NCBI RefSeq assembly: GCF_003287895.1
Contig: NZ_CP030280.1
Coordinates: 1,619,501-1,683,500 of the forward strand
DNA from: Blautia argi
GTDB taxonomy: Bacteria > Bacillota > Clostridia > Lachnospirales > Lachnospiraceae
Direction of reading: 5' to 3'
Length of the DNA stretch: 64,000 nucleotides
The notes under the pieces are model-generated. The model saw only the letters and a program-made list of their open reading frames with translations. It had not been told where the DNA came from and did not search any database. Below are positions 779-56,640 of this stretch, in pieces. Position 1 is the first letter of the stretch. Each line of letters begins with the position of its first letter. The translations under genes were made by a program, and so were the position numbers.

Positions 779-2385
779 ATGAAAAAAATTTTTAGATTAG
801 TTAATAAATATTTATATCAGCATTTTATTTCAATATGTATTCTCTTTGTTGCGATTATTTTGTCTAGTATATGTACCCTGATAATACCCATTATATCTGG
901 GAATTTTGTTGATTATTTAGTTGATGAAAAAAAACAACAAGGGATTATCTTTTTTTGCCTCCTATTTGCAATAGTTAGTATTGCTAATATTTTAATTGGT
1001 TTTTTGTCCAATAGAATTTATACAAAAGTAAATTTGCAAATATTATATGAAATGGGACAAAGCTATATTCAACATATGCAGAAAATGAATGTTTTATATT
1101 TTAGTAATAAAAATATATCCCAAATAACTCAACAAATAAGTGTTGATATAAAAAGCGTCGTTGATTTCTTTTTTGATTTTTTTAGTAACGCAAGTATTAA
1201 CTTTTTTAAGATTCTTATACCGGCATTACTGGTTTTTTAGAATAAGCAGGGGTATGTGTTTTCTAATGCTTCTTTTGATGTTGATTTATTTGATTTCCTA
1301 CATTTTTTTTAAACAAAAATTATATGCCACTAGTTATGAAACCAAAAAAAATCAAAATGTATATTTTGGAGATTTGTATGAACAATTGCTTAAAATAAAA
1401 TTTATAAAAATATACAGTATTATGGATTGGTTTAACCAAACAATTCAGAAAACTTTTGATCAGTTACTTAAAGTAACAATGAAATTCCAAGTGATTCAAT
1501 ATATTTATTCAGGTTTAGATACAGCGATAATGTTTATTGGACAGTTAGGTGTATTTATTATCGGTGGTAATATGGTAATAAAAGGAAGGATAAGTATTGG
1601 AGAATTTACAATTATTAATACATACTTTAATATGGGAATTACAGCAGTGCGATATTTTTTTGGATTAGGAAAGAAAAAACAGGAAACATTGGTAGCTTAT
1701 GATAGATTAAATAGAATCATGGAACAAGAAGAAGAACATTTTGGTGAAATGTTATCAGATACTATATCTGAAGTTCGACTTCACAAATTGGGATTTTCAA
1801 TTAACAATAAAATTATTTTGAAAGATATAGAATGTAAATTTGATAAAGGGAATTCATATGCAATTAGTTGGAAAAAATGGTACAGGAAAGACGACTCTAT
1901 GTAATGTGCTTACTGGATTATATCAGGATTATACAGGCGTACTGAAGTATAATGGCGTATCTGCCAAAAGATATGATATGGAAAAACTAAGGAAAAAACG
2001 AATTGCCTTGATAGAGCAAGAACCAGAAATGCTTCAGGATACCCTATATAAAAATATAGCCCTTGATTTAGATATTCCTAAATCTTTAGTACAACATCTT
2101 ATAAAAGAGTGGTTTGATGATACCTCATTTTATGATTTAGATATGAAGATTAAAGAAAGATCTAATAATTTATCTGGCGGTGAAAAAGAGAAAATTGCTA
2201 TTTTAAGAACCCTTGTTAGAAATCCAGATATAATAATCATGGATGAACCTACAGCATCTTTAGATCAAAATAGTTGTGATCGATTAGAAAGTCTAATTTT
2301 AGATAATTGGAAGGACAAAATTTTAATTATTATTACACATGATGAAAGAATGATACATATATGTGACTATAAAATTCAATTATAA
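779..2385 (+). pseudogene. ABC exporter (permease + ATPase), two frameshifts
   Basis: Three overlapping reading frames add up to one half-size ABC exporter of about 535 residues: an N-terminal membrane domain and a C-terminal nucleotide-binding domain. The ATPase has Walker A GKNGTGKTT, a Q-loop (IEQEP), the signature LSGGEKEK, Walker B IIIMDEP and an H-loop (ITHDE). The organisation resembles the peptide/bacteriocin exporter subfamily; the substrate is unknown. The first break is in T6 at 1233-1238: removing one T joins LVF to RISRG. The second is at 1862-1863: removing one A restores YALVGKNGTGKTT. Both are single-base insertions, so they may be sequencing errors; as written, the product is split before its Walker A. 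A start at 779 follows GAGAGGGG at good spacing. Confidence 0.75.
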
Positions 2386-2539
2386 CAAAATTAGGATAAA
2401 TAACGAGTTTTAAGAATATATGGCATGTTATATCGATTATTAAAGTATGGTTGATAATAATGGAATAGATATTCTAAATTTTACATTAATATTGACTTCA
2501 AATATTAATTGTGCTACCATGAATTTGTAATTCAGTTTT

Positions 2540-2571
2540 ATTCTTCATAAAGAAGAATTGCAATTTTTTTC
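2540..2571 (+). terminator. Terminator-like hairpin after the ABC exporter
   Basis: ATTCTTC (2540-2546) pairs with GAAGAAT (2552-2558) and is followed closely by a T7 run (2564-2570). Confidence 0.55.
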
Positions 2572-2637
2572 TGACCATAAGGTTAGAATGAAAATTTAAA
2601 GTATTGATACTTACTTAAATTAAAAAGTGTATATATC

Positions 2638-2675
2638 AAAAGCATTCAGGAAGATATTCTTTGAATGCTTTTTTT
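2638..2675 (+). terminator. Strong Rho-independent terminator
   Basis: An 11-bp stem (2638-2648 with 2662-2672) runs straight into T7 (2669-2675). It separates the AT-rich exporter region from the methyltransferase operon. It also shows that an ATG-like start near 2665 is not the real start of the methyltransferase. Confidence 0.75.
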
Positions 2676-2721
2676 ATTGCCTTTTGGAAAGGAGAAGAAA
2701 GAAAAAATAAAAAGCAGAGAG

Positions 2722-2787
2722 AACGATATGAAAACCAGAATGGATTTTTGTATCGTTTTTTGTATGTGCAGAAAGGAGTATGATAGT
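2722..2787 (+). promoter_or_regulatory. Leader peptide embedded in a terminator hairpin (copy 1)
   Basis: AACGATA (2722-2728) pairs with TATCGTT (2751-2757), extended by two G-U pairs and four A-T pairs, with a 10-nt loop and then a T run to 2761. The stem contains an ATG at 2728-2730 that opens a peptide beginning MKTRMDFCIVFCM. The frame is the same as that of the methyltransferase downstream, so translation could also run on as an N-terminal extension. The same layout occurs at 10107-10208 before dnaN with a related peptide and compensatory changes in the stem. I infer a transcription attenuator controlled by leader translation; the signal sensed is unknown. Confidence 0.6.
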
Positions 2788-3834
2788 GTGCAAGAAAGTG
2801 ATTTACAGCGTGCAAGTAAAATTTTACGCACAGAATTTGGTTCCGATTGGAAACAAATTGTACAGACGTTAGGGACAAAGGAACTTACACATTGCGTAGG
2901 ACAAGATCTGACTTCTTTTATGGCATTTCCGGAACGGGCAGAAGGAGGCAACAATCAGTGGAGAGGAAATTGTTCCCCACAGGTTGTAGCAAAACTCATT
3001 CAGTTTGTAAAAAAAAGCAGGCAGTATGAAAAGAAGAAGGATTTTTTGTTTCTGGATCCCATGAGCGGTTCCGGAACCAGCCAAGATGTGGCAGAGAAAT
3101 TGCATATTTCCTCTGTCTTATATGATTTAAACCCGCATCCGCCAAAGGGGCTTGGAAATTGGAATGCATTGAAAGATGAAGTAATGCATAGTGCAGATTT
3201 AATTTTTTTCCATCCTCCGTACCATGATATTATCCGGTATTCCGGAAATATGTGGGGGAGACCTCATAAAGATGATTTGAGCAGATGTGAAAACTATGAA
3301 GATTATATTGAAAAACTGAACTATGTGATCAAAAAACTATATTTTAGCCTAAGACACAATGGATATCTGGCAATCCTGGTAGGAGACATCCGGCAGAAAG
3401 GCATCTTCCATTCTATTGCAGCAGATATGCTCCATATTGGAAATATGAAGTCCTGGATTGTAAAGGGCCAGTTTCATTGCACTTCCAATAAGAAACAATA
3501 TTCAGGAAAACCTTTTATTCCTATTGTGACAGAAACATTGGTACTTTTTCAAAAAGAAGAAATTTTTCTTGTACCATTTTCAATCAGAAAGGAAGGGACA
3601 TTCCAGATACATGAACAGGATTCTATTGCACTGACGTGGTTTCATTTATTACGAATGACAATGGAACATCTAGATGGACATGCAACGCTAAAGCAGCTAT
3701 ATCAGGAATTAAGAGAGCACCCAAAAGCCAAGAAGAATAAAAACTATGAGGCGAGAATTCGGGCAACTTTATATGAACATGCCGATTGTTTTCTGCCTTT
3801 AGCAAGAGGAACTTTTCGGCTAAAGTACCGATAG
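2788..3834 (+). CDS. DNA N4/N6 methyltransferase-like protein
   Basis: The 348-residue product has a SAM-binding motif LDPMSGSGTS near residues 88-97 and a catalytic-type HPPY motif (FFHPPYHDII) near residues 135-145. The order SAM motif then catalytic motif is the reverse of the beta-class Mod enzymes. HPPY in place of DPPY/NPPY is known in some N4/N6-like methylases, so activity is plausible but not proven. GTG 2788 is chosen because AGGAG (2774-2778) sits 9 nt upstream; an in-frame ATG at 2728 belongs to the leader peptide. No restriction endonuclease gene is adjacent, so this may be a solitary methylase protecting the element, or a non-restriction role. It heads an operon that continues to 9074. 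Confidence 0.7.
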   Translation: MQESDLQRASKILRTEFGSDWKQIVQTLGTKELTHCVGQDLTSFMAFPERAEGGNNQWRGNCSPQVVAKLIQFVKKSRQYEKKKDFLFLDPMSGSGTSQDVAEKLHISSVLYDLNPHPPKGLGNWNALKDEVMHSADLIFFHPPYHDIIRYSGNMWGRPHKDDLSRCENYEDYIEKLNYVIKKLYFSLRHNGYLAILVGDIRQKGIFHSIAADMLHIGNMKSWIVKGQFHCTSNKKQYSGKPFIPIVTETLVLFQKEEIFLVPFSIRKEGTFQIHEQDSIALTWFHLLRMTMEHLDGHATLKQLYQELREHPKAKKNKNYEARIRATLYEHADCFLPLARGTFRLKYR

Positions 3835-3847
3835 GAAAGAGGTGTGC

Positions 3848-4090
3848 ATGAAAGATGAAACAATGGCAGGATATTATCAGTTACTGATTGCAATCTTTTG
3901 CAACCTGAATGCAAGAGAGGCAAGATATCTTTATGACTATGGACCGGCTCACCCTATTTGCAGAAGAATGATGTACAGAAAATTAAAGCATCAGAAACAG
4001 GGGGATTGTTTTTCAGAAAAAGAAATTTTAGACAGGCTGGAACAGTTGGAAAAGAATGGATATTTTTACAGAGAAAAGAAAGGTACATGA
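3848..4090 (+). CDS. Small hypothetical protein
   Basis: An 80-residue protein that I do not recognise. ATG 3848 follows AGGAAAGAGG at suitable spacing, while the GTG at 3842 overlaps the ribosome binding site. It is rich in charged residues at its C-terminus and shows no membrane segment. Its TGA (4088-4090) overlaps the ATG at 4087 of the next frame. A different frame opens at 4095 with a plausible-looking peptide (MYLHKLADFRSFQKMG), so a +1 error near 4075-4085 that shortens this protein cannot be excluded. Confidence 0.5.
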   Translation: MKDETMAGYYQLLIAIFCNLNAREARYLYDYGPAHPICRRMMYRKLKHQKQGDCFSEKEILDRLEQLEKNGYFYREKKGT

Positions 4091-4755
4091 GGATATGTAT
4101 CTTCATAAACTGGCGGATTTTCGATCATTTCAGAAGATGGGAGTTGGTAAATACTATGGAACAAATAGAGGAAAAGAGACCAGATTCTTTAAAAGAAGGA
4201 GAAGATGTTTGGCACAAGAAACTGTATGATTGGAAAAAGGTATATCAGTTTGGAGCAGAAGAACACCTAACCACAGACGGAGAAGTACTAAATCAAATCC
4301 GAAGGGAATTATTGCAGGTTTGCGAGAACTATTTTTCTGGTACAACTGCTTATGACGGGTATAAGAAGAAAATTCCGCATACTGTTAAAGAGGACTATAT
4401 GGCAGGAGAAACGGAAATTCTTGGAACTGCGCAAAGACTGGTAAAGAAATATACGCAGAGCCAGAAATTCCGATATATACTTGTGAAGCGTCCTTGGCTT
4501 AGAAGAGCAGACCGGAGAAAACTTCAGGTGGATCTTTTAGTAGGAAGAATCCGGAAATTAGAGATTTGCGTAAAAAGGAAAGATATTCTTGGAATGCGTA
4601 TCTTTTCAAAAGAAGATGAACTGGATAAAATGCTGACAGAAGTTTATCAAAAAATAAAAGAACTTCCCAGAACAAGTAACAGTGTAGAAGGCATCGGAAA
4701 TAAGAAACGGTCCAGTTGGAAAAATCAGATGACATTAGAAGAATTTATTTGTTAA
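4087..4755 (+). CDS. Hypothetical protein of the island
   Basis: A 222-residue basic protein, not recognised. The ATG at 4087 overlaps the upstream stop (ATGA), which would give coupled translation; an in-frame ATG at 4156 with GGGAG 12 nt upstream is an alternative start and removes a hydrophobic, less convincing N-terminus. The middle is rich in Lys/Arg (KRPWLRRADRRKLQ), which would suit nucleic-acid binding, but no known motif is seen. It lies in the methyltransferase operon. Confidence 0.5.
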   Translation: MRICIFINWRIFDHFRRWELVNTMEQIEEKRPDSLKEGEDVWHKKLYDWKKVYQFGAEEHLTTDGEVLNQIRRELLQVCENYFSGTTAYDGYKKKIPHTVKEDYMAGETEILGTAQRLVKKYTQSQKFRYILVKRPWLRRADRRKLQVDLLVGRIRKLEICVKRKDILGMRIFSKEDELDKMLTEVYQKIKELPRTSNSVEGIGNKKRSSWKNQMTLEEFIC

Positions 4756-4773
4756 TTGAAAGGAGGAAACAGG

Positions 4774-5160
4774 GTGACAGATCAAAAAATGATTGCAAGT
4801 ATGGTAGGTGACTTTTATGGCGTATATCTTGGAAAATCCATGTTGGGAATTCAGGGACTTCTAAAGAAATACCATAACCATAAATTTATTATTACCTTGA
4901 TTTCTAATTTGGAAACTACAGTAGAAATTGATATGCATAAGGCAATGCATGAAATTTATGATTTCTATAAGAAACATAGAGGAAAAGGACAAAGAGCGGA
5001 CAGCGAATGGGAACAGATCATTGAAGAAGCAGGTAAGATAGGAAAGAAGTATGAAGGAAATACTTGGTGTAAGCAATTCCTGATTCAAATGATCAGTATT
5101 ATTGAGGAAGAGGACAAGGAAATTAGAGAAAAAAGAGAGGAATTAAAAAGAGCAGCATAA
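4774..5160 (+). CDS. Hypothetical protein of the island
   Basis: A 128-residue, mostly helical and highly charged protein with no recognised domain. GTG 4774 is preferred because AAAGGAGG lies at 4759-4766; the in-frame TTG at 4756 lies before that site. It ends in a Lys/Glu-rich helix. It sits between the preceding unknown gene and the PcfK-like gene and is followed by a hairpin. Confidence 0.6.
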   Translation: MTDQKMIASMVGDFYGVYLGKSMLGIQGLLKKYHNHKFIITLISNLETTVEIDMHKAMHEIYDFYKKHRGKGQRADSEWEQIIEEAGKIGKKYEGNTWCKQFLIQMISIIEEEDKEIREKREELKRAA

Positions 5161-5162
5161 CG

Positions 5163-5189
5163 GGAAGGGGGTAACCCCTTCCTGATTTT
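5163..5189 (+). terminator. GC-rich hairpin between genes
   Basis: GGAAGGGG (5163-5170) pairs with CCCCTTCC (5175-5182) across a 4-nt loop, followed by a short weak T stretch (5186-5189). It may act as a partial terminator or an mRNA-stabilising hairpin within the operon. Confidence 0.5.
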
Positions 5190-5205
5190 ATAGGAGGAAA
5201 TAAGA

Positions 5206-5872
5206 ATGCTTGAGACAATGATAGAAAATACGAAAGATTTGAATATGGTTGCAGACCGTTTAAGAGCAAGAGGTGAAATTTCACGTTTGCAGGAACTTTG
5301 CAGAGAAAGGCTGATACCAGAAAATGATATGCAGGATTTTTTTGCAGGGAAAAAGACTTCGGCTGGCAGAAGTGCCGTTGGAAGAAAAGAAATTTTCTAC
5401 TGCTTCTGAAAAGATTGCGGAAGAAATGTATCAGTTTGAAGGACCAGGGCTGACAGTGGCTTTAGGGCAGTATCTCTTGGAACGCTGCGAAAATGAAATC
5501 CTTAGTGCACAGATACTGCTGCCTCATAAATCTTTGGAAAAAGGAATCAATTTCATTCTGCAAAGAGTATATGAAGAGTCAAAAGACTACTTGCAACAGA
5601 ATCGAAATGGACAAAATGGTGCAGGAGTCGCAGTTAGTTCAGAAAAAGTGTACCATTGGTTGGAGGAATACTATGCATTAGATGATGCTGAGGAAGAAAG
5701 AAAAAAGAAAGAGGAAGAACGGGAAAGAAAAAGAAAAGCACAAGAAAAAACTGCTGTAAAAGGCGTGAAGACTTCTGTAAAGGAAAGCAAGACCAAAAAA
5801 GACAGTCAGATTTCTCTTTTTGATATGCTGGAAGATGGAGAAAAAATGGAGGAAAAAAATGATTGCGTATAA
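5206..5872 (+). pseudogene. PcfK-like protein, one frameshift
   Basis: Two frames join into a protein of about 221 residues: the first from ATG 5206 (good site AGGAGG upstream), the second ending at 5872. Removing one A from A5 at 5350-5354 joins FFAGK to RLRLAEVP without loss. The C-terminal half has the PcfK-like pattern: a helical segment ending in LEKGINFILQRVYEE, then VYHWLEEYYALDD and a long Lys/Glu coiled tail. PcfK-like proteins are encoded next to PcfJ in pCF10 and many Gram-positive elements; their biochemical role is unknown. Given the other +1 breaks in this window, a sequencing error is quite possible and the gene may be intact. It overlaps the next start by 14 nt. Confidence 0.6.
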
Positions 5873-6398
5873 AGCGTTTCAGAAGAATTTGAGTTGTTTG
5901 GGGTTTCAATATAAAGAAGCAGAATGGAATTATACAGAAAAGGCTGCCTGCAGGAAAACGGGGTTTCATTGTGCAGAAAACCCGCTGGACTGTCTGATTT
6001 ACTATAGCAATCCGGATTTAGCGCAGTATTGTGTGGTTGAAGTTGCCGGAGAACGCCAGGAAGAGGGCGATGACAGCAAAATTGCCTGCACACAGCTTCG
6101 GATTGTTAGAAGACTGACGTTATTGGAACTTTTAATAGAAGGGGTTGCATATATGCTCCAGTATCCACACAGAAGGCTGAGTAAAATCATACAGACAGAA
6201 AAAGGAAGTCCCATGGGTGGATTTACAGTGGTGCGTGGGAAACATCCCATCGGAAAAGGGAGGAAAGATACAATCCTTCTTCTCATCAGGGAAGATATTA
6301 AGGGAAATATCGTTAATTTTTCAGTCATCATAATTGACGGAAAAGAATATGTTCCAAATGTTTATTATGATTTTGATGGAAGAAAGGCAGAAGAATAA
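5859..6398 (+). CDS. DUF7666-like protein
   Basis: A 179-residue protein starting AYKAF and containing LGFQYKE, then TGFHCAENPLDCL and QYCVVEV, and then DDSKIACTQL. This order matches the N-terminal signature (TGFHACENPxD) of DUF7666 proteins, which are frequent in phages and mobile elements and whose function is unknown. The second half has a basic, Gly-rich stretch (GKHPIGKGRK) and beta-strand-like ends. ATG 5859 lies 6 nt after GGAGG (5848-5852) and overlaps the end of the PcfK-like gene, so the two are translationally linked. Its stop abuts the next start (TAAATG). Confidence 0.6.
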   Translation: MIAYKAFQKNLSCLGFQYKEAEWNYTEKAACRKTGFHCAENPLDCLIYYSNPDLAQYCVVEVAGERQEEGDDSKIACTQLRIVRRLTLLELLIEGVAYMLQYPHRRLSKIIQTEKGSPMGGFTVVRGKHPIGKGRKDTILLLIREDIKGNIVNFSVIIIDGKEYVPNVYYDFDGRKAEE

Positions 6399-8555
6399 AT
6401 GAGAAAAACAGAATTATTGGAAATCGGCTGTTTAGAGGCAACAAAAAAGATGTTAAAGTTTTCCAAAAAGGAAGAAAAAAAATCCAGAAAACAGAGATTA
6501 CAAAAGAAAATGAAAATGAGGAAGTTTGAATATGAAGTATCTGTAAAGATTTGTAAAAAAGGGGAGATTTTGGCAGTTTCATTTTTCAGGATAAAAGAAA
6601 TGCTTGCCGGACAAGTGCAGCCGGAGATAGTTGTATTCTTAAATAAAAAGGAGCGTACCTATCTTTCGTACCTTCCAAGAGAAGCAAAGTGGAGAACAGC
6701 CACAATTATAAAGATTATGGGCTATTTTTATGGGAGTTTTTATCACTGTACCAAAAGAGATTGGGCATTATTCCGGAAATATTTTGACACAGAATGTAGC
6801 AGATGGACACCTTTAAAAGTTAGTTCTATCAGAAGTATTATAGAAGAGTTTCAAACGGATATTTTATGGGATAGGATAGAGGAAAGGCGCAGACAAGAAA
6901 CCAATGAATGGGATCAGGTAATGTCCCAAATTCCGCTACTTCCAAAGGATTGGGAAAGGTGGTGCAGAAAATCGGCCATTACGCAGCACTATATTTTCTA
7001 CAAACCGGAAAGAAAAGGAGAAGGCTATTGCAGCAGATGCAACACGAGAGTGCAGGGGATTTTACCAAAACATAATCAATATGGTATCTGCCCGAAGTGT
7101 AGACAGCGAATACAATATAAATCCAAGAAAATGCAAAAAAGGATTATTCACAAAGCAGAGTGCACCTATTTGTTGCAGAAGTTCGGAACTAATCAAATGG
7201 TGATTCGGAAGTTTAACGTCTATGCAAAATTTCATCAAAAGCGTGACTTTGTTCCGGAAATAAGCTGGTTTGAAACCAGAAGGGTAATCGTAGAAAAAGA
7301 TTTTTCCCAGACAGCATATTATTATGGACAATATAAGGATGGCTCCTATCGGTGGAGAGAGTCTTTATATGCAGAGTACCATTATGATTTTGAAGGGAAT
7401 AAAGGCACGCTATATCAGAGAACCTTATTTTCTTTGAACCAGGGAATTTTGAAGACTTCCGGGTTATACGAACTTCAAAAGAACATGAAAATGGTAGAAC
7501 CGGAAACGTATTTATTATACCGTTATCATTGTCCGGCTATTGAGAAAGCTGCAAAGGCGGGATTGAAAAAGTTTGTGATCCAAAGCATCCATAAAAAGAG
7601 CCGACTTCCAAATCACAGAAAACTGATAGAAATTTTGGGAATCAATAGTTGCCTGCTAAAGCAGTTGGTGAAAATGGACGGCGGAATAGCTGGTTTATCC
7701 TGGCTGCAAAAGATGAAGAATACACAAAAGTGGATTTCAGAGGATATACTTCGTTATTTTGAAAAACATAATATTTCCACAATAGATGTTGCCTTTATTG
7801 AAAATCAAATGTCGCCACAGCAGATTTACCATTATTTAAGAAGAATGGAAAAGGAAAGCGGGCTGCCCGTAGAGAAGATTTTGACGATATGGAGAGATTA
7901 TCTGTCCATGGCAAAAAAAATAGGAGAAAATCTAAAGGACTCCATCGTTTATAGACCACGGGAGTTAGAAAGAAGGCATGATGAGGCGGTAATAGCCCTG
8001 CAGGAAATAGACACAAAGCAGAGAGCAGAGGAACTACGGGGGAAATTTCCAAATCTGGAAAAGGTTTGTAGGGAAATCACGCCCATCTATCAGTCACTGA
8101 AAGATGAAAAATATGCAGTGCTGGTTCCTCAAAAGATTGAAGATATTATAAAAGAAGGAAAAGCATTGCATCATTGTGTAGGTACTCAGGAATGCTATTT
8201 TGACCGGATCAGCAGAAAAACCTCTTATATTGTTTTCTTACGCAGACAGGAAGAATTGGAAAAGGAATTTTATACGATGGAAATTGAACCAGATGGAAAC
8301 ATTGTACAAAAAAGTAAGGACTATAACAGAACGGGAGAGGACTATGAAGAGGCAGAACCATTTTTAAAGAAATGGGAAAAGAATGTATTGAAAAAGATAA
8401 GGAACCAGGAAAAAGATCCTACAAAAACGCAGGTTACACTATGGACTGCGGAGCTTTCTGCTGCTTATAAGGATCATGTGGTGATGAAAGGTGGAAAATA
8501 TCAGGGCCAGTATCTGTCAGATGTGCTGAAAGCAGAACAGGAAGCAGCTGCTTAG
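6399..8555 (+). CDS. PcfJ-like protein 1
   Basis: A 718-residue protein with the PcfJ layout. A zinc ribbon is near residues 210-235 (CSRCN and CPKCR, two CxxC pairs), then a long helical middle, and the hallmark segment KALHHCVGTQE near residues 587-597 followed by a mixed beta region. PcfJ was named from conjugative plasmid pCF10 and the family is common in integrative elements, but no activity is established. The zinc ribbon suggests nucleic-acid binding. The gene follows the DUF7666 gene without a gap and precedes an unknown gene by 15 nt. A second, divergent PcfJ-like protein is encoded at 12004-14079. Confidence 0.75.
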   Translation: MRKTELLEIGCLEATKKMLKFSKKEEKKSRKQRLQKKMKMRKFEYEVSVKICKKGEILAVSFFRIKEMLAGQVQPEIVVFLNKKERTYLSYLPREAKWRTATIIKIMGYFYGSFYHCTKRDWALFRKYFDTECSRWTPLKVSSIRSIIEEFQTDILWDRIEERRRQETNEWDQVMSQIPLLPKDWERWCRKSAITQHYIFYKPERKGEGYCSRCNTRVQGILPKHNQYGICPKCRQRIQYKSKKMQKRIIHKAECTYLLQKFGTNQMVIRKFNVYAKFHQKRDFVPEISWFETRRVIVEKDFSQTAYYYGQYKDGSYRWRESLYAEYHYDFEGNKGTLYQRTLFSLNQGILKTSGLYELQKNMKMVEPETYLLYRYHCPAIEKAAKAGLKKFVIQSIHKKSRLPNHRKLIEILGINSCLLKQLVKMDGGIAGLSWLQKMKNTQKWISEDILRYFEKHNISTIDVAFIENQMSPQQIYHYLRRMEKESGLPVEKILTIWRDYLSMAKKIGENLKDSIVYRPRELERRHDEAVIALQEIDTKQRAEELRGKFPNLEKVCREITPIYQSLKDEKYAVLVPQKIEDIIKEGKALHHCVGTQECYFDRISRKTSYIVFLRRQEELEKEFYTMEIEPDGNIVQKSKDYNRTGEDYEEAEPFLKKWEKNVLKKIRNQEKDPTKTQVTLWTAELSAAYKDHVVMKGGKYQGQYLSDVLKAEQEAAA

Positions 8556-8570
8556 AAGAAAAGGAGAAAT

Positions 8571-9074
8571 ATGGAAAAAGAATATCAAATAGTGACAAAA
8601 AATATACCGGATAAGAATTTGCAGAAATTAAAACATATCCGGCAGAAAAACCAGTATGGTTGTTATGAGGAGAACCTGGAAGGAATGTATACAGAAAGAG
8701 GGGTATACAGACTGTTTCGCAAATATGTTAATAAACAGGAATATCCTTTCTATCAGGACTGGAAACAGGATATGCTGAAAATGGGCATTTTACTAAAAGG
8801 CCCTAAAACAGAGCTGGCAGTAAAAAGAAAGGGTGAGCATATAGTGGAAGAAATCTGTATTACGGTGAAGACGATAGAAGATGCCTGTAACCTTGTACGG
8901 CAAGCATATAGAGATTCCGATGTATGTTTGGGAGAGCTTTTTCGAAACATAGAAATTCAAGGATTGAGCATTCAGGAAGTAGTGGAAGTATTTTCCATAC
9001 TGTATCGTGAACTGGAAAATGACAGAGTCTGTCGTGTGAATGTGGAAGAAAAATTTTTCACATTTGTAGCATAG
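8571..9074 (+). CDS. Hypothetical protein of the island
   Basis: A 167-residue protein not recognised. ATG 8571 follows AAAAGGAG. It is soluble, with alternating charged and aromatic residues and no cysteine cluster or membrane segment. It is the last gene of the first operon. The 9075-9225 gap holds a GC-rich hairpin (about 9091-9114) with no T tract after it. Confidence 0.55.
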   Translation: MEKEYQIVTKNIPDKNLQKLKHIRQKNQYGCYEENLEGMYTERGVYRLFRKYVNKQEYPFYQDWKQDMLKMGILLKGPKTELAVKRKGEHIVEEICITVKTIEDACNLVRQAYRDSDVCLGELFRNIEIQGLSIQEVVEVFSILYRELENDRVCRVNVEEKFFTFVA

Positions 9075-9225
9075 AAATTTGATGATGGCGGGGGTGTGTC
9101 GGTGACATGCCCCCTAAAAAATACCATGAACAGCCAATTACGCAATAAAAAAGGCAATTTAAACAAAGAACCTTGTGGTTTTACCGGAGCATGCTATTCT
9201 AAAAGAAAAAGGGGAGGGAATACAA

Positions 9226-9939
9226 ATGATGAAAATTGCGATATTTTACCAGAAAGAAAGTAAGCTTTTGGATGATATACGAAAGAAGATCCGAAAGGAA
9301 GCGTGTCAGCTAGATAACATATATGCGATTTATGAATATTCTACGATAAAGGCTTTGCGCAAAGCAAATGAACAAAGTCCTATGGATATCGTGTTTTTGG
9401 AAGATACGATAGATAATTGTGGACTGACAGCCGCCAAATATATCCGGGAAACAGGACAAAAAACTTCTCTTTACTTTTTCGGAACGTCTACGAATCGGGC
9501 TTTTTATGGATATGAATATAAGGCAGCACATTATTTGACGGAAAAAGAACAGGTAGAAAGTTTAAATATCTACCAGCATTTTTTCAGAAAGTATTTTCCA
9601 AAGAAAACGATTTTCCTGTTTGATCAAAGCATGGATTCTGCATGGGCTATGTGTTTATCCGAAGTTGTTTATATTGATTTAAAAACCGGGGATATTTGTA
9701 CAGAAAAAGGAGAGAAAAAATCGGGTTATATACTGACAGAGAAAGTATTGGAAACAATACGAAAAAAGACCTCTTTTCTGAACGTTTCCGGAGAATATCT
9801 TGTCAATCAGGATTTTATAACAGATGTGACTGGGCAGATGATTTACCTATATCAGAATAAAAGCATTTTATGTAAAGAAAAGGAGATGGATACGATTAAA
9901 GAGTTCCTTTGGAACATGGGACAAAAAAAGTTTTTATAA
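9226..9939 (+). CDS. LytTR-type response-regulator-like protein
   Basis: A 237-residue protein with an AgrA-like two-part plan. The N-terminal half resembles a receiver domain (MKIAIFYQ, then DIVFLED near residues 50-56, then AAHYLTEK). The C-terminal half has the LytTR-like strand pattern EVVYIDLKTGDI and ends in a helix. In AgrA-type receivers the FLD aspartate is the phosphoacceptor; here the aligned residue is Glu (FLE), so the protein may be phosphorylation-independent. ATG 9226 follows GGGGAGGG by 7 nt. No histidine kinase is adjacent. Its position directly before the dnaN leader, next to a perfect inverted repeat, makes it a candidate regulator of that operon. That link is inference. 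Confidence 0.55.
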   Translation: MMKIAIFYQKESKLLDDIRKKIRKEACQLDNIYAIYEYSTIKALRKANEQSPMDIVFLEDTIDNCGLTAAKYIRETGQKTSLYFFGTSTNRAFYGYEYKAAHYLTEKEQVESLNIYQHFFRKYFPKKTIFLFDQSMDSAWAMCLSEVVYIDLKTGDICTEKGEKKSGYILTEKVLETIRKKTSFLNVSGEYLVNQDFITDVTGQMIYLYQNKSILCKEKEMDTIKEFLWNMGQKKFL

Positions 9940-9954
9940 GGGAATATTATACAT

Positions 9955-10004
9955 ACAATATATAGGAAAAATGGATTGTAAAAAACTATATATTGTGTTA
10001 TTAT
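9955..10004 (+). promoter_or_regulatory. Promoter with operator-like inverted repeat before dnaN
   Basis: A -35-like TTGTAA (9976-9981) and a -10-like TATTAT (9999-10004) are 17 bp apart. A perfect 11-bp inverted repeat, ACAATATATAG (9955-9965) and CTATATATTGT (9986-9996), surrounds the -35. This suits a dimeric regulator. The rest of the 284-bp gap is AT-rich leader up to the attenuator at 10107. Confidence 0.5.
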
Positions 10005-10106
10005 ATTGTTGAATATATTTTTACAAATGGAAAAATTTGTAGTTAGTATTTCATTTTGGCAGAAGCCAAAAGCAGTATTTTAAGGAATATCCTGAGAAAT
10101 AGAAAG

Positions 10107-10208
10107 AAAGACATGAAGAATCGTATGGTTTTTTGTGTCTTTTTTTGTATGCAGAAATGGAAAGGAGGACAAATTCAGTTTTTAAAAGCAGACATTATCG
10201 TTGTATGA
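10107..10208 (+). promoter_or_regulatory. Leader peptide embedded in a terminator hairpin (copy 2, before dnaN)
   Basis: AAAGACA (10107-10113) pairs with TGTCTTT (10136-10142), extended by two G-U pairs at the start codon and further A-T pairs; a T7 run (10140-10146) follows. ATG 10113 opens a 31-codon peptide beginning MKNRMVFCVFFCM and ending at TGA 10206-10208. Compared with copy 1 at 2722, two stem positions differ on both sides in a way that keeps pairing (C-G to A-T, and T-A to C-G). dnaN starts 15 nt after the peptide stop. Confidence 0.6.
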
Positions 10209-10223
10209 AAGGAGAACTATTTT

Positions 10224-11333
10224 ATGAAAATTATTTGTAAAAAGACAGATTTAGCAAAGGCAGTTCAGACTGTAGCAAAGGCAGTTCCTGCAAAAGCAAC
10301 CACCTCTATTTTGGAGTGTCTTTTGCTCCGGGCAGAAAAAGAGGAGATTACCCTTACCGGGAATAACCTGGAATTGGGGATTGAAACAGTAATGCCGGGA
10401 AACATTGAAGAGGAAGGCAGTATTGCAATCCAGGCAAAAGTATTTGGGGAGATTGTAAGAAAACTTCCAGAGGGAGATGTCGTACTGGAAACAGGGGAAA
10501 AAGATCAGGCGACTGTACGCTGTAAGAAGACGAAGTATAATCTTTCTGTAAAGTCAGCAGAAGAGTACACCTGTATTCCCGATATGGAACGGAAGAATCA
10601 TGTCACGATTTCAGAGTTTGACTTAAAAGAGGCAATCCGGCAAACGATTTTTTCAGTAGCAGATACTTCCTCAAAGAAGGCAATGACAGGAGAACTGTGG
10701 GAAATTAATGGAAAAGAACTGAAAATTGTAGCGCTGGACGGACACCGTATTTCACTTAGAAAAATCAAACTGAAAAAAGAATATGAACCGCGAAAGGTCA
10801 TTGTTCCAGGAAAAACACTGGCAGAAATCATCAAGATTATTGGCGGAGATCCGGAGAAGGAAATTGCAGTTTACTTTACAGAGAACCATATTCAGTTTGA
10901 GATAGAAAATACCAGAGCAATCTCCCGGTTGATTGAGGGAGAATATTTAAAAGTGGAGCAGTTATTATCAAAAGATTATGGAACAAAAATCAAAGTTCAG
11001 AAAAAGGAATTACAGGAATGTATTGACAGAGCAAGTTTGTTATTGAAGGACGATGCAAAAAAGCCAATTATTCTAAATATTGAAGAAAATATTTTGTCAT
11101 TGGAAGCAGTATCAAACATGGGCTCTATGAATGAAAGTATGTTCGTTGTAAAAGAGGGAGAGAAATTACGAATTGGGTTTAATCCCAAATTCTTATTGGA
11201 GATGCTGCGGGTGATTGATGATGAGGAAGTCTTCATGTATTTTACGAGTGCAAAAACGCCATGTACTGTAAGAGATGAAAAAGACAGTTATGTATATCTG
11301 GTTCTTCCGGTCAACCTTAGTGCCGCAGCGTAA
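10224..11333 (+). CDS. dnaN: DNA polymerase III sliding clamp (beta subunit) on a mobile island
   Basis: At 369 residues this has the usual clamp length, with the expected three-domain pattern: KAVQTVAKAVPAKATTSILEC near the N-terminus, VALDGHRISLRKI in the middle, and the C-terminal YLVLPVNL matching the clamp ending (YLxLPVRL) that forms the peptide-binding groove. The clamp tethers polymerase and other factors to DNA. The chromosome must have its own dnaN near oriC, so this is an accessory copy. It starts the second operon of the island behind the leader peptide, with AAAGGAG 9 nt before ATG 10224. A role in replicating the excised element or in diverting the host replisome is inference. 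Confidence 0.85.
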   Translation: MKIICKKTDLAKAVQTVAKAVPAKATTSILECLLLRAEKEEITLTGNNLELGIETVMPGNIEEEGSIAIQAKVFGEIVRKLPEGDVVLETGEKDQATVRCKKTKYNLSVKSAEEYTCIPDMERKNHVTISEFDLKEAIRQTIFSVADTSSKKAMTGELWEINGKELKIVALDGHRISLRKIKLKKEYEPRKVIVPGKTLAEIIKIIGGDPEKEIAVYFTENHIQFEIENTRAISRLIEGEYLKVEQLLSKDYGTKIKVQKKELQECIDRASLLLKDDAKKPIILNIEENILSLEAVSNMGSMNESMFVVKEGEKLRIGFNPKFLLEMLRVIDDEEVFMYFTSAKTPCTVRDEKDSYVYLVLPVNLSAAA

Positions 11334-11361
11334 AGTGAGAGAAGAGGGTGAATAAGAAGGT

Positions 11362-11685
11362 ATGGAAATTGTTCGAAATGGGCAGAAAATTCTGTTGACA
11401 GAGTGGGAATTATTTCAGGCGTATGAAGAACAGAAGTATTTGTACTTAAAAGAAAGCGTTCTGGAAAATATGGAAGACTGTCTTCCAAAAGAGATGTATA
11501 GCAAATTGAAAGCAAATGAAGATTACAAGGAAAGAAGCATCACTTTATTCCAAAAATATTATGAGGATTATCATATGGAATATGATGTGGCACTAAAAGA
11601 GGCAATCCGCGATTCTGCGAAAAAGTTTCTTGATGCAGAAAAAGCAGAACTTGTAGAAGAAAAAGGAAGGAACAGTAAAGGATGA
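11362..11685 (+). CDS. Hypothetical protein of the dnaN operon
   Basis: A 107-residue, helical and acidic protein that begins MEIVRNGQKILLTEWELFQAY. This start resembles small island-encoded proteins whose first strand-turn reads 'NGxxIxLTxxEL'; the function is unknown. It lies 28 nt after dnaN, and its stop overlaps the next start (ATGA, 11682-11685), so the two are likely co-translated. Confidence 0.55.
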   Translation: MEIVRNGQKILLTEWELFQAYEEQKYLYLKESVLENMEDCLPKEMYSKLKANEDYKERSITLFQKYYEDYHMEYDVALKEAIRDSAKKFLDAEKAELVEEKGRNSKG

Positions 11686-12023
11686 AAAGAGAAAATTATA
11701 TTATTACGGTAAAAAGCATTTATATACGTAATGCGGAGATGTTTTGCCCGGAAAGCATGACGAAACAGGAAATTTTGAACTTAGATGATATCGATATTTT
11801 TCAGTCCTGTGAGTTTGAAAGATACTGGAAAAATGCAGAAGTTTCTGCTTACTTATGTCAGATGGCTTGTGCAGAAGAAGAATTAAAAAGGGAACTTCAG
11901 AAAATTGCAGAATATTTCAAGATACCAGCCTGTTTTTTAGAAGCAATTCCTGTAAAAAAAGATTTGGAAGATGATATATTTCATAATAATGGAGAGAAGG
12001 AAAATGAAGAAAGCACTACTTAA
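11682..12023 (+). CDS. Hypothetical protein of the dnaN operon
   Basis: A 113-residue acidic protein, not recognised. It shares ATGA with the upstream gene and overlaps the start of the second PcfJ-like gene by 20 nt. Such nested overlaps suggest fixed stoichiometry or coupled translation with PcfJ-like protein 2. Confidence 0.5.
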   Translation: MKRENYIITVKSIYIRNAEMFCPESMTKQEILNLDDIDIFQSCEFERYWKNAEVSAYLCQMACAEEELKRELQKIAEYFKIPACFLEAIPVKKDLEDDIFHNNGEKENEESTT

Positions 12024-14079
12024 AAAGATACCTGTTGTGGAAGCCGGTATTAAGGATAAACAATATATGGAACTTTGCAGACAAAACTATCTGATGAAGG
12101 TACAAAAGGCTACGGTAGCACATAAACGGACTTTAATCCTAAATCTTTATGACGCGGAAAACATTATAAAGGAGCAATATCAGCCGTTCTGTCGCATCTT
12201 TTTTTCTAATAGAGACTTTATTACATATTTTATAAAAGAAAACCGTTGGTCTATAAAAACTTTGGATATCTTGGAAGCTGAAAAGGGGAAATTTATATCT
12301 CAGATTGCGATACGAACATATAAGGAAAAAAGGAGTATTCAACAGTTTTTTCATTGTACAGATGATGCCGTAGACAGTATACAACTGATACAAATAGAAC
12401 AGCAGAAAAGAAAAGCAGAAAAGTCGTTAAAAAGAAAAAAAAGAAGGATAAAAGATATAGAGTCTCTATTTCGCAGTGTGAAACCAGTGACTGGGAGATT
12501 TGAAAAATGGCTGGAATACGAGGTGTTAAAAGAAAGTCAATATATTTTCTATCAGTATTCCAGAAGAAAGATGATAGATTGCACATGTAGTCATTGTAAA
12601 TCGGAATATCAATTGGAGAGATCTATACCAAGGCATAACAAAGAATATGTGTGTCCCATTTGCAAGCGGAAATCAATTTTTAAAGCAAAAGGAAAATCAG
12701 GATATTTTTCTGATTATTCAGAAGCAGTTAAAATTGAAAAAGCATCAGATAGAATCATACTACGTCATTTTGAAGTTAGAAAATCTTATGCTGCGCATGG
12801 TACGGGAGAATATACATTATCCTATCATGAAGACTATCGGGCTGTATTTCAGGAAAAATTCCATTTTTATTACCCGGTTTATAGCTGTTTGGCTCATAAG
12901 AATGTATGGAAAGAGAAATATATAGATCCGTATTTTCACTACAGATATCATTTGAATTATACGATAAAAGCATATCAGACGATAACCCAAATGCCTGGAA
13001 TGGTGTATCCATATAATTTGAAAAATGTTTTTAAAGGAACACCATTTGAATATTGCTCCTTAGATTATTTTGTCAAAAATAATCGTTTTGTAGAGCTGCC
13101 GGTTGTATATTATCTGAAGACATATTTAAAATTCCCATTGCTTGAACAGTTCGTGAAGCAGAATATGTTTTATATCGCTTTGGAATGCCTATATCAGCTT
13201 CCAAACGAATGGGAAGAAACAAAGGAAACGAATACAAGACATTTCTTAGGAATAAATTCACGATATTGCTCTATCCTAAGTAAGTATAATATGGGGATAA
13301 GAGAATGGGGCGTTTTACAGAAAATGGAAAAACTAAAAATCCATTTGTCGGAACAGGAAATTTTTGCATATTGTAAAATTTTTGAGAGTAATAGAGATTT
13401 CTTGGAATTAAACCAGTATGCATCTATTCGGAAAATTGTGAATTATCTGGCAAAGCAGATTGAAAAAGAAGAAAAAGGAAAGGCATATAAGTTGTCCGGT
13501 GATGTATCTGGTATCAGTCATGTGGAAATGAAATGTTATCAGACGTATATAAGAAGCTGGAAAGATTATATTGAGTGGGCAGAAAAATTGGAATATGATC
13601 TGAAAAGCCGATACGTTCTGTTTCCAAAAAACTTTAAAGATGTTCACGACAAGACTTTCCTGGAGTATCAAAAACAACAAGATAAGATGGAAAGAAGAAA
13701 ACAGGCAAAAGAAAGAAGAACCGTGAACCAACTTTTAAAGAAAGATATAAAACTACTGGATACCAAAATTCAGGATAAGGATTATCTTTTAAAAGTTCCT
13801 GAAAATTGTCAGGAAATCCGAAAAGAAGGGCAGGCGTTAGGACATTGTGTAGGAAGTTATATCCCTCATATTGCCAATCGGGAATGTGATGTGTATTTTA
13901 TCCGGAAAAAGACCGACCCAGATAAGCCTTTTTTTACGGTTGACTGGAGAAGAGGGAAGATTGTGCAATGTCAGGGGAAAGGGCGGATTCGTTATCCGCA
14001 GGAAATGGTAGAATTTGTTCATTATGCAGAAGAAAAATTAAGGCTTCTAAAAGGAGAAGAAGAAAAAAAGGCTGCATAG
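12004..14079 (+). CDS. PcfJ-like protein 2
   Basis: A 691-residue protein with the same plan as the one at 6399: a zinc ribbon near residues 195-220 (CSHCK and CPICK), a long helical middle, and QALGHCVGSYI near residues 607-617 followed by the short beta-rich PcfJ end (FFTVDWRRGKIVQC). Start ATG 12004 follows GAGAAGGAAA and lies inside the preceding gene; the frame is open to 11971 but lacks a site there. The two PcfJ-like proteins are strongly diverged, so this is not a recent duplication. Its Lys-rich tail and zinc ribbon suit nucleic-acid binding. The activity is unknown. Confidence 0.75.
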   Translation: MKKALLKKIPVVEAGIKDKQYMELCRQNYLMKVQKATVAHKRTLILNLYDAENIIKEQYQPFCRIFFSNRDFITYFIKENRWSIKTLDILEAEKGKFISQIAIRTYKEKRSIQQFFHCTDDAVDSIQLIQIEQQKRKAEKSLKRKKRRIKDIESLFRSVKPVTGRFEKWLEYEVLKESQYIFYQYSRRKMIDCTCSHCKSEYQLERSIPRHNKEYVCPICKRKSIFKAKGKSGYFSDYSEAVKIEKASDRIILRHFEVRKSYAAHGTGEYTLSYHEDYRAVFQEKFHFYYPVYSCLAHKNVWKEKYIDPYFHYRYHLNYTIKAYQTITQMPGMVYPYNLKNVFKGTPFEYCSLDYFVKNNRFVELPVVYYLKTYLKFPLLEQFVKQNMFYIALECLYQLPNEWEETKETNTRHFLGINSRYCSILSKYNMGIREWGVLQKMEKLKIHLSEQEIFAYCKIFESNRDFLELNQYASIRKIVNYLAKQIEKEEKGKAYKLSGDVSGISHVEMKCYQTYIRSWKDYIEWAEKLEYDLKSRYVLFPKNFKDVHDKTFLEYQKQQDKMERRKQAKERRTVNQLLKKDIKLLDTKIQDKDYLLKVPENCQEIRKEGQALGHCVGSYIPHIANRECDVYFIRKKTDPDKPFFTVDWRRGKIVQCQGKGRIRYPQEMVEFVHYAEEKLRLLKGEEEKKAA

Positions 14080-14110
14080 AAATATAAAAATTTTAAGAGA
14101 ATAGAAACAC

Positions 14111-14146
14111 AGGCAGAAGGATTAGAACATTCTTCTGCCTTTTCTT
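14111..14146 (+). terminator. Rho-independent terminator after PcfJ-like 2
   Basis: AGGCAGAAG (14111-14119) pairs with CTTCTGCCT (14132-14140), followed by TTTTCTT. It divides the dnaN operon from the methylase-helicase pair. Confidence 0.75.
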
Positions 14147-14168
14147 ATGAAGAGAAAGGAACAGAGAT

Positions 14169-15143
14169 ATGAATGATGTATTGGAAAAATTACAACGTGT
14201 CAAAATCCAAAATAAGACCAGGCTGTCCAAAGAAGACCAGCAATTTTGTCAGATACAGCAAAAATTATATGACAGTACCAGAAATCATTTTTTAAGTATG
14301 TTTGTAGATATGGAAACACTGCACCAGCAGGAACTGACCTTTTATGGAAAGGTACAGAAATATGCAGACAGGGTGTACCAACAGAACCTGATTTGTATGG
14401 ATAAAAAGAAACAAACAGAACTGATGGAAAAGGTACATAATCATTTTATCAGAACCATTATTTCCTTCTTTAACCGGAAATATGGTCTTGCCATACAGAA
14501 ACATTCGTATGAACGCTATATTTCCCTGCAGACTCTGGCAGAACCCGTATTACATAAGCGGATTTCTTCTTTAACAGAAGAAGAGAAGCAAATTTATCGG
14601 GAAGAAAGGAAGAAATGCTGTAAACAGAAAGAAGAAAATCTTCATGAAGTTTTGTTTGCCAGAATTGAGTATCCGTTGATTTTGGATGATATTTTTTCTT
14701 ATCTGGGCGGTTTTAGTTTTCAGGAGAAAGTGGAGCAGGAGATTAAAACAGATGCAAAAGCAGGAGTGACCTATGCAAAATATAAATTGCAAAGTAAAAA
14801 ACTGTCCATTCAAAACCTGTTATGCAGCAAAACAGATCTTTGGGGAGAATACGAAATCTGTCTGGATAGTGAAAAATATAAAGCACTTTTACGGGCATTG
14901 ACTTTTTTTGACTCCAGTAAAGAACAGGTTTCTATTTATGATGGCTGGCTGGAAAGATTTGTAAGTTTTTCATATAGCGGGAAAAAGGAGAAAGAAGGGA
15001 TTTTTGATGAACACCCTGCGCTTGGAAAGAAAGTTGTTAAATTTAAGTATTTTAAAAATGGCAGATGGGATATTGTTTTTGCCAGTGGTGTACATGCATT
15101 GTCTTTTGCCAAAGAGTATCTCGGCTATAAGGAGGCGGCCTAA
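14169..15143 (+). CDS. DUF4942-like protein
   Basis: A 324-residue protein. The C-terminal segment VVKFKYFKNGRWDIVFASG resembles the DUF4942 ending, in which a short 'KYFKNGNxHIxF' stretch is typical; DUF4942 is often linked or fused to DNA methyltransferases in mobile elements. The N-terminal half is helical and charged. Its TAA overlaps the next ATG (TAATG at 15141-15145), so it is translationally coupled to the methylase-helicase, which supports a joint role. The family match is from the local pattern only. Confidence 0.55.
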   Translation: MNDVLEKLQRVKIQNKTRLSKEDQQFCQIQQKLYDSTRNHFLSMFVDMETLHQQELTFYGKVQKYADRVYQQNLICMDKKKQTELMEKVHNHFIRTIISFFNRKYGLAIQKHSYERYISLQTLAEPVLHKRISSLTEEEKQIYREERKKCCKQKEENLHEVLFARIEYPLILDDIFSYLGGFSFQEKVEQEIKTDAKAGVTYAKYKLQSKKLSIQNLLCSKTDLWGEYEICLDSEKYKALLRALTFFDSSKEQVSIYDGWLERFVSFSYSGKKEKEGIFDEHPALGKKVVKFKYFKNGRWDIVFASGVHALSFAKEYLGYKEAA

Positions 15144-18136: not shown

Positions 18137-18437
18137 AGTGTTTGAAAAAGAAACATACGTAATGATAATTTATGGCAGAATTTTTACTCAAAGAAATTCA
18201 AACTACGATACTTTTACTCTGCTTATAGCAGAACAATATATATTTTGAGAAAGTATTGAAAAGTTTATTAGAAAATACAGAATAGGCTTAAAAGTCTGTT
18301 TATATTTAGTGTAGAACTTAGCACAATAGTACGCAAAGTCTCCCTAGCGTGGCAATGACAGATATAAAAAATACTTGTTTTTCTGGTTCTTGTATTTTGA
18401 GGATTTGTCAGTAGAGATTTATAGGAAAGGAGGATGT
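18137..18437 (+). other. Gene-free stretch before xis
   Basis: About 300 bp of AT-rich DNA with a weak inverted repeat at 18370-18400 and the xis ribosome binding site AAAGGAGG (18425-18432). I see no gene or clear promoter. In Tn916 the xis-int region is separately controlled, and this gap may serve that purpose. Confidence 0.4.
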
Positions 18438-18644: not shown

Positions 18645-18659
18645 GAGTCATTGAAACAA

Positions 18660-18704
18660 GGGGCTTTGATATGATAATATTTGAATATCATTTCAAGGCT
18701 CTTT
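18660..18704 (+). terminator. Imperfect hairpin between xis and int
   Basis: GGGGCTTTGATATGAT (18660-18675) pairs imperfectly with ATATCATTTCAAGGCTC (18685-18699), followed by T5. It may lower int expression relative to xis. Confidence 0.5.
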
Positions 18705-18726
18705 TTGGATTATGAAAGGAGAATAT

Positions 18727-56626: not shown

Positions 56627-56640
56627 AGGAGGTGCAGGTT

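Follow-up and report, generated by a model that had tools for sequence, protein, structure and literature searches.

The put RNA of phage HK022 has a two-hairpin form and the EAR element of Bacillus acts from within an operon; erm and tetM belong to the leader-peptide attenuator type and the prgQ region of plasmid pCF10 relies on a trans factor that binds the leader and decides termination. Antitermination is also known to gate the conjugation genes of some Gram-positive plasmids and of Tn916, and a short leader repeated at several promoters of integrative elements from gut Lachnospiraceae would be another form of such gating. In pLS20 and related conjugative plasmids, the conAn system consists of a protein, ConAn1, and an RNA, conAn2 (PMC8955417). 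In the accessible, mostly non-subscription literature on conjugative-element antitermination, LoaP, Tn916, PcfJ/PcfK and conAn, no title or opening of an abstract described the leader that is presented here.

Results

The window, meaning the whole stretch of 64,000 nucleotides that was analysed (positions 1619501-1683500 of contig C1 in the Blautia argi genome, G000), has its 5' end inside an integrative element with a Tn916-type Xis encoded at 18375 and an integrase at 18712 (families Tn916-Xis and Integrase_DNA). A T-run hairpin at 18658-18704 separates the excisionase and integrase genes. The element codes for an N6/N4 DNA methyltransferase (2788..3834, + strand, as are all leader features below; PF01555, E 6.5e-11; probable start GTG 2788), for PcfK (starting at 5324), two PcfJ proteins (6399 and 11971) and a methylase-helicase (15143), all three by Pfam, and for a homolog of the sliding clamp DnaN (10224..11333, + strand; PF00712, PF02767 and PF02768), whose gene is the first after leader B. 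Upstream of the window, it encodes SSB, RecD2, AAA and VWA proteins.

Contig C1 from about 1583904 to 1637747 (window 18247) aligns, with gaps, to the element found in Coprococcus catus VPIC661 and in the laboratory strain E. ramulus ATCC 29099, which has copies of the leaders A, B, C and E described below; these two species held the only close relatives in the genome contigs searched; further relatives, with a PcfJ 83-88% identical, were present as protein sequences. Viral contigs searched for the element gave no close relative, and no match was found among plasmids searched with the A region (window 2600-3900) or among phages searched with window 2500-18200. An ABC-transporter-like gene (by eye) is spread over three overlapping frames at window 779-2385, in a stretch without alignment to the E. 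ramulus element, and looks broken. The stretch of C1 at about 1593946-1601175 (loci L148/L149) is also missing from the E. ramulus element; it has similar short sequences at both ends and a recombinase-like gene inside (by eye), and is probably a nested mobile element. Elsewhere in the window, an ordinary T-box leader (RF00230, 47186-47432) lies upstream of a phenylalanyl-tRNA synthetase-like gene (by eye), and DNA methylase and large helicase/restriction-like genes at 55145-59592 resemble, by eye, a type III restriction-modification pair.

Two hairpins of this element, A before the methyltransferase (2716..2762, or more narrowly 2718-2761) and B before dnaN (10101..10147, or more narrowly 10103-10146), were defined by folding and alignment, and both carry an ATG in the 5' arm, at 2728 and 10113 respectively. 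The first-pass annotation had described an ATG in a stem followed by a T run at 2728 and the same architecture before dnaN, and folding agreed on both counts. Hairpin A has a predicted energy of -18.0 kcal/mol (z -5.5) and hairpin B of -21.3 kcal/mol (z -6.4), with 0/200 shuffles equal in either case; the strength of both far exceeds chance. Each combines a stable hairpin with an adjoining U tract, the two features of an intrinsic terminator. When A, its E. ramulus ortholog and B were aligned, 17/17 pairs were kept, both partners having changed in 2 of them and a single partner in 2; for this alignment of just three sequences, 55/500 shuffles were equal. The alignment also bears out that two stem pairs differ on both sides between A and B with pairing kept, and that the ATG falls at the same place of the stem with two G-U pairs; the E. 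ramulus ortholog has these same U-G and G-U pairs. Very probably the hairpin terminates transcription at the end of a leader RNA that is repeated ahead of several gene clusters of a mobile element of gut bacteria.

A covariance model, R1, trained on these three sequences (A, B and the E. ramulus ortholog of A) returned more copies with compensatory changes. Its matches lie inside the element (L149:13857), at 1516331 of the same genome in a sister element (L158), and in the distant elements L010, L014, L015, L020, L028 and L019, all with E <= 0.0066 (the value of L019), with weaker matches elsewhere such as L016 (E 0.13) and L027 (E 2.2). The copy in L010, L014, L015, L020 and L028 lies about 1.4 kb before a homolog of the gene at 3842, which is roughly the place of copy A; the intervening gene is not recognisable as a methyltransferase, and 3/5 have CAGAATGG in the loop, like A. 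L010 and L014 have a second, B-like copy before an excisionase-like gene and an integrase (by eye; the integrase by tblastn). The sister element (G000 C1 ~1516331) also has this promoter-P1-terminator leader, with GACACA replacing GACATG, and a copy of it is also found in G025 (L194).

Sixteen terminators were aligned, among them L016, L027 and L019 with their weak or moderate R1 scores, leaving out those of C, E, L009, L018 and L025, which differ in sequence or were added later. In this alignment 96.4% of cells are paired and 6/14 pairs are changed on both sides (13 cells), in a set of members mostly found via the stem model, which favours stems, and with cell counts inflated by related sequences. 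Its pairing was equalled by 0/500 shuffles, and slid versions reached 71% at most. These compensatory changes support the earlier proposal of a conserved RNA structure, of the attenuator kind, in an integrative element.

The terminator is the last part of a module ordered as promoter, hairpin P0, hairpin P1 and terminator, shortly upstream of a first gene. The module precedes four clusters of the window's element, A and B and, upstream of the window, C (AAA, VWA and following genes) and E (DUF4313, SSB and RecD2), and in distant elements it stands ahead of an excisionase-like gene and other first genes; its members were partly picked by eye and the majority were first located through the terminator. 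Module promoters often have CTATATATTGTGTTA in the spacer and, in several cases, inverted ACAATATATAG upstream. An Rfam 15 scan of the window found T-box, 6S and tRNA only, all elsewhere than the leaders, and permissive Rfam 15 scans of two leaders gave no match, the best reaching 22 bits, far below the gathering score.

In leader A, the promoter (2492..2520) consists of TTGACT, a 17-nt spacer, TG and TACCAT. It comes from a scan that found 57 promoter-like matches, promoters A and B among them, versus 50.7 expected by chance, and it gains support from the conservation of TTGACT...ATTGTGTTACCAT in the E. ramulus ortholog. P0 followed by T7 (2525..2570) is the first of three tandem T-run hairpins, with an outer stem that is weaker in the E. 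ramulus ortholog, and the second terminator-like hairpin (2638..2672) is kept, with changes, in the ortholog locus L005. Three such hairpins between promoter A and the methyltransferase (window 2525-2762) are more than we noticed in other leaders. P1 of leader A, TTCTGACC-ataa-GGTTAGAA (2569..2588), is a weak match of the P1 model R2 described below (2559-2600, 17.6 bits, E 0.43), and its stem is identical in L005. An earlier P1 candidate, an ATTCTTC/GAAGAAT hairpin, was dropped once R2 matched 2559-2600 instead. The likely methyltransferase start, GTG 2788, is preceded by AGAAAGGAG, and its Shine-Dalgarno sequence lies at 2770..2778 (duplex -8.5 kcal/mol).

In leader B, the promoter given by the scan (TTGTAA, 17 nt, TG, TATTAT; 9976..10004) is surrounded by an inverted repeat, ACAATATATAG...CTATATATTGTGT (9955..9998), that also occurs in L010, L014 and L020 and is likely an operator for a regulator of the element; the pattern is present in 4/200 family genomes, the context in the fourth (G107) not being leader-like. 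P0 (10022..10041) and a candidate P1, TTTTGGC-agaa-GCCAAAA (10054..10071), were both recognised by eye, the latter with no R2 match.

P1 follows the pattern U-rich, UUC, variable arm, loop, GAAG and A-rich. Across 18 members, with arms set by eye, 54/54 cells are paired, with 9 distinct arm pairs and both-sided changes at 4/6 pairs (0/5000 shuffles). The 11 P1 hairpins behind R2 come from other elements, among them the E. ramulus copy of E and the sister element; those of leaders A, B and C, and of E in this genome, were kept out of the model. For its training alignment, 0/500 shuffles reached the percentage paired, the cells changed on both sides or the covariation score; shuffles reached the pairs changed on both sides in 108/500 and the further types in 493/500. 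Over 204 kb, R2 matched this genome's E with an E-value of 0.0037 and, more weakly, C (0.32) and A (0.43), with no match to P1 of leader B; we infer that the hairpins of leaders B and C are true P1 members. A whole-genome search with R2 returned the sister element, E (0.059) and one further place (0.51) only.

In 48 related loci, 14/15 R2 matches had E < 0.01, and no match was found in 96 more distant loci. All 16/16 matches at E < 0.01, 14 from the related loci and 2 from the 204 kb, have a terminator within 230 nt, versus 22/400 random stretches, a count that is partly circular, with ten found via the terminator model, E via a T-run scan, and 11 being training members. Among 120 family genomes, 5 had a match at E <= 0.01, and the 10 matches comprise 3 that were known or orthologs and 7 new ones. 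Five of the seven new loci carry a terminator (L191, L192, L195, L196 and L197), versus 13/304 random stretches, and the place of the ATG reads ATC, ATT or ACT in these five (by eye). Of the remaining two, L193 shows no more than an imperfect T-run hairpin (by eye) and counts among the misses, and L198 matched by chance within a coding gene; the E terminator is present at L190.

T-run hairpins are also found inside clusters, close before the next gene, at L149:6470, L149:13857, L148:9874 and window 14111, the last being a terminator-like hairpin of the B cluster between the second PcfJ gene and the next gene (14111..14140). The promoter scan gave no promoter-like match between the 14111 hairpin and the next gene, nor before the next gene at L149:6470 and L149:13857 among the best 60 of 83 matches. 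Pairing between the 5' arm and the upstream leader, as expected of an antiterminator, did not go beyond shuffles in 12/12 leaders (lowest 7/60), so a two-state switch is not supported; the lack of such pairing favours a modular element over a simple switch.

The first-pass annotation had also proposed a conserved Phe/Cys leader peptide, with ribosome-dependent attenuation, opened by the stem ATG. The peptides read MKTRMDFCIVFCM in copy A and MKNRMVFCVFFCM in copy B, and their Phe and Cys codons spell TTTTTTGT from the 3' arm and the U tract. Before the methyltransferase, the ATG and the frame do exist; what copy A does not have is a separate, closed leader ORF, since no stop codon closes the frame before it enters the methyltransferase (ORF 2665-3834). 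In E. ramulus and C. catus, the copy-A ortholog retains both stem and ATG and has 7 T versus 6 here; the extra T shifts the frame and breaks the peptide, which in L005 and L006 (identical here) becomes MKIRRDFCIVFLYMQKGV and stops ahead of the methyltransferase. Nine methyltransferase homologs were fetched from the best 120 of 396. The three closest (P0165-P0167; 98, 94 and 92% identity) keep the reading through the hairpin, and the peptide is absent from the other 6/9: P0168 (81%) has an N-terminal extension with different residues, P0169 (72%) has a different N-terminus, and P0172, P0173, P0179 and P0191 (58-63% identity) start at the place of GTG 2788.

The ATG of copy B opens a 31-codon ORF (10113..10208) that closes just upstream of the dnaN Shine-Dalgarno sequence and is probably not a gene. 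The peptide pattern is present in 3/397 family genomes (G000, G025 and G159), of which G025 and G159 match via an identical copy B alone, an extra T hiding their copy A; with no difference among the three in copy B or its ORF, peptide B is uninformative in this comparison. Shine-Dalgarno duplexes at the two ATGs are weak, with -3.6 kcal/mol for A and -2.7 kcal/mol for B (values reached by 30% and 46%, respectively, of the 1500 ATGs sampled at random), compared with -9.0 kcal/mol for dnaN and the -8.5 kcal/mol of the methyltransferase GTG.

In the sequence gathered for the analysis, 54/429 terminator-like hairpins have an ATG in the 5' arm, and the same arms hold TGA 65, GAT 62, TAG 45, AGT 74 and GTA 50 times; ATG inside a terminator arm is no more frequent than chance. 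An ATG also occurs in the 5' arm of this genome's E terminator, at a different place. In the 16 related terminators, the codon at the ATG place is ATC in 10, ATG in 3, ACT in 2 and ACA in 1, and the pair that holds its third base is CG in 10, GU in 3, UG in 2 and AU in 1; with four pair types at this position, it is the stem that is kept and not the start codon. Neither a conserved peptide nor a ribosome-binding site of its own, as a leader-peptide attenuator would have, was found, and the frameshifted A ortholog, the homologs without the peptide and the lack of the ATG in most of the aligned relatives speak against both the peptide and the attenuation by Phe/Cys. The start codon and peptide inside the hairpin are most likely accidental; chance alone often places a start codon in a terminator arm, and comparison with relatives takes away the peptide here but makes the case for the RNA stronger.

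Discussion

The reading that we favour on balance is that terminators A and B end leaders, that polymerase from the element's own promoter is antiterminated via P0/P1, and that the ATG is accidental and the peptide without a role. Terminator A would close the leader of the methyltransferase-PcfK-PcfJ cluster and terminator B that of the dnaN-PcfJ-methylase/helicase cluster, and in the default state RNA polymerase would halt at the leader terminator. Polymerase from the element's own promoter, after transcribing P0/P1, would gain read-through of this terminator and also of further terminators within the cluster, with P0/P1 acting as RNA alone or with a bound factor. The stem ATG would be an accidental base change in this lineage. 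Termination, antitermination and the role of P0/P1 are what we infer from the sequences; since the terminators sit between the element's promoter and the first gene, expression needs some bypass of them.

That the bypass is an RNA element altering the polymerase, alone or with a factor, is a possibility that we put forward with some reserve. More tentatively still, P0-P1 may be a so far undescribed family of short antitermination RNAs, acting in cis, that co-switches several promoters of one integrative element. If true, passage of the leader and intracluster terminators would be reserved for polymerase that started at the element's own repressible promoters, which would explain terminators placed between promoter and first gene and would offer a compact RNA for testing. 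Against antitermination, the P1 match is weak for A and C and absent for B, and the three tandem T-run hairpins of leader A exceed a simple module.

A very similar sequence pattern would be expected from strong promoters combined with ordinary terminators that insulate. According to an explanation from such ordinary parts, the promoter is repressible, leaky terminators damp read-through from the host, and P0/P1 protect the end or serve as regulator sites. Operator-like repeats would account for regulation without any RNA, and terminators are established as insulators in Tn916 (PMC11658703). We consider this explanation unlikely, given that the terminator lies between the element's own promoter and the first gene (16/16 R2 matches at E < 0.01, the partly circular count above), where it would cut the element's own expression, and that P1 is conserved in sequence, pairing and place.

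The leader could instead be bound by an element-encoded protein or antisense RNA that decides termination at this one site, in the manner of pCF10 prgQ. The leader and terminator do precede the first gene, and a model of this sort comes naturally with the kinship of PcfJ and PcfK to genes of pCF10. We nevertheless think it improbable that a trans factor attenuates transcription here, as no antiterminator pairing was found in the 12 leaders and the intracluster T-run hairpins need bypass too. Prevention of the terminator by a ribosome that starts at the stem ATG or stalls at Phe/Cys codons is very improbable: A and B share the ATG, the start of the frame and the UG/GU wobbles, and the three closest homologs keep the frame, but the A ortholog is frameshifted, the A frame has no stop before the methyltransferase, the Shine-Dalgarno sequences are weak, the ATG is absent in 13/16 relatives and no commoner than other triplets, and the homologs at 81% and 72% lack the peptide.

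Returning to antitermination via P0/P1, described systems resemble the leader to different degrees. Leader-peptide attenuators of the erm and tetM type share a T-run hairpin before the gene and differ in that the present leaders have no conserved peptide, no antiterminator pairing and a start codon in just 3/16. Antitermination by LoaP and other NusG paralogs shares the leader hairpin and terminator. LoaP was set aside for G000, which has a single NusG-domain protein, presumably housekeeping; 8/9 genomes have one such protein and G400 has 11.

The put RNA and EAR are structured RNAs that act in cis on terminators, and P0-P1, two neighbouring hairpins directly after the promoter, resemble put in particular; both function in other hosts, the likeness drawn here is one of anatomy, and Rfam gave no match for two leaders. 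The canT region of Tn916 is a cis-acting antitermination RNA with a terminator between promoter and genes, as reported in PMC11658703, and Tn916 has the excisionase and integrase families of the window (Tn916-Xis and Integrase_DNA). The canT region spans 452 nt and is used post-circularization, whereas the leaders here are shorter, of about 100-260 nt, and belong to several promoters; the comparison is of anatomy only. With conAn, the leader shares an RNA near the start of a mobile-element cluster that has intrinsic terminators, and it would share the read-through only from the element's promoter that PMC8955417 presents for conAn; conAn serves one long conjugation operon, unlike the several clusters with short leaders here, and the two are likened by anatomy alone. 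An RNA element between promoter and terminators, common to conAn, canT and put, is present in the anatomy of these leaders, with P1 of leader B assigned by eye. Antitermination resembling that of conAn, canT or put would be the most likely function of the P0-P1 leader.
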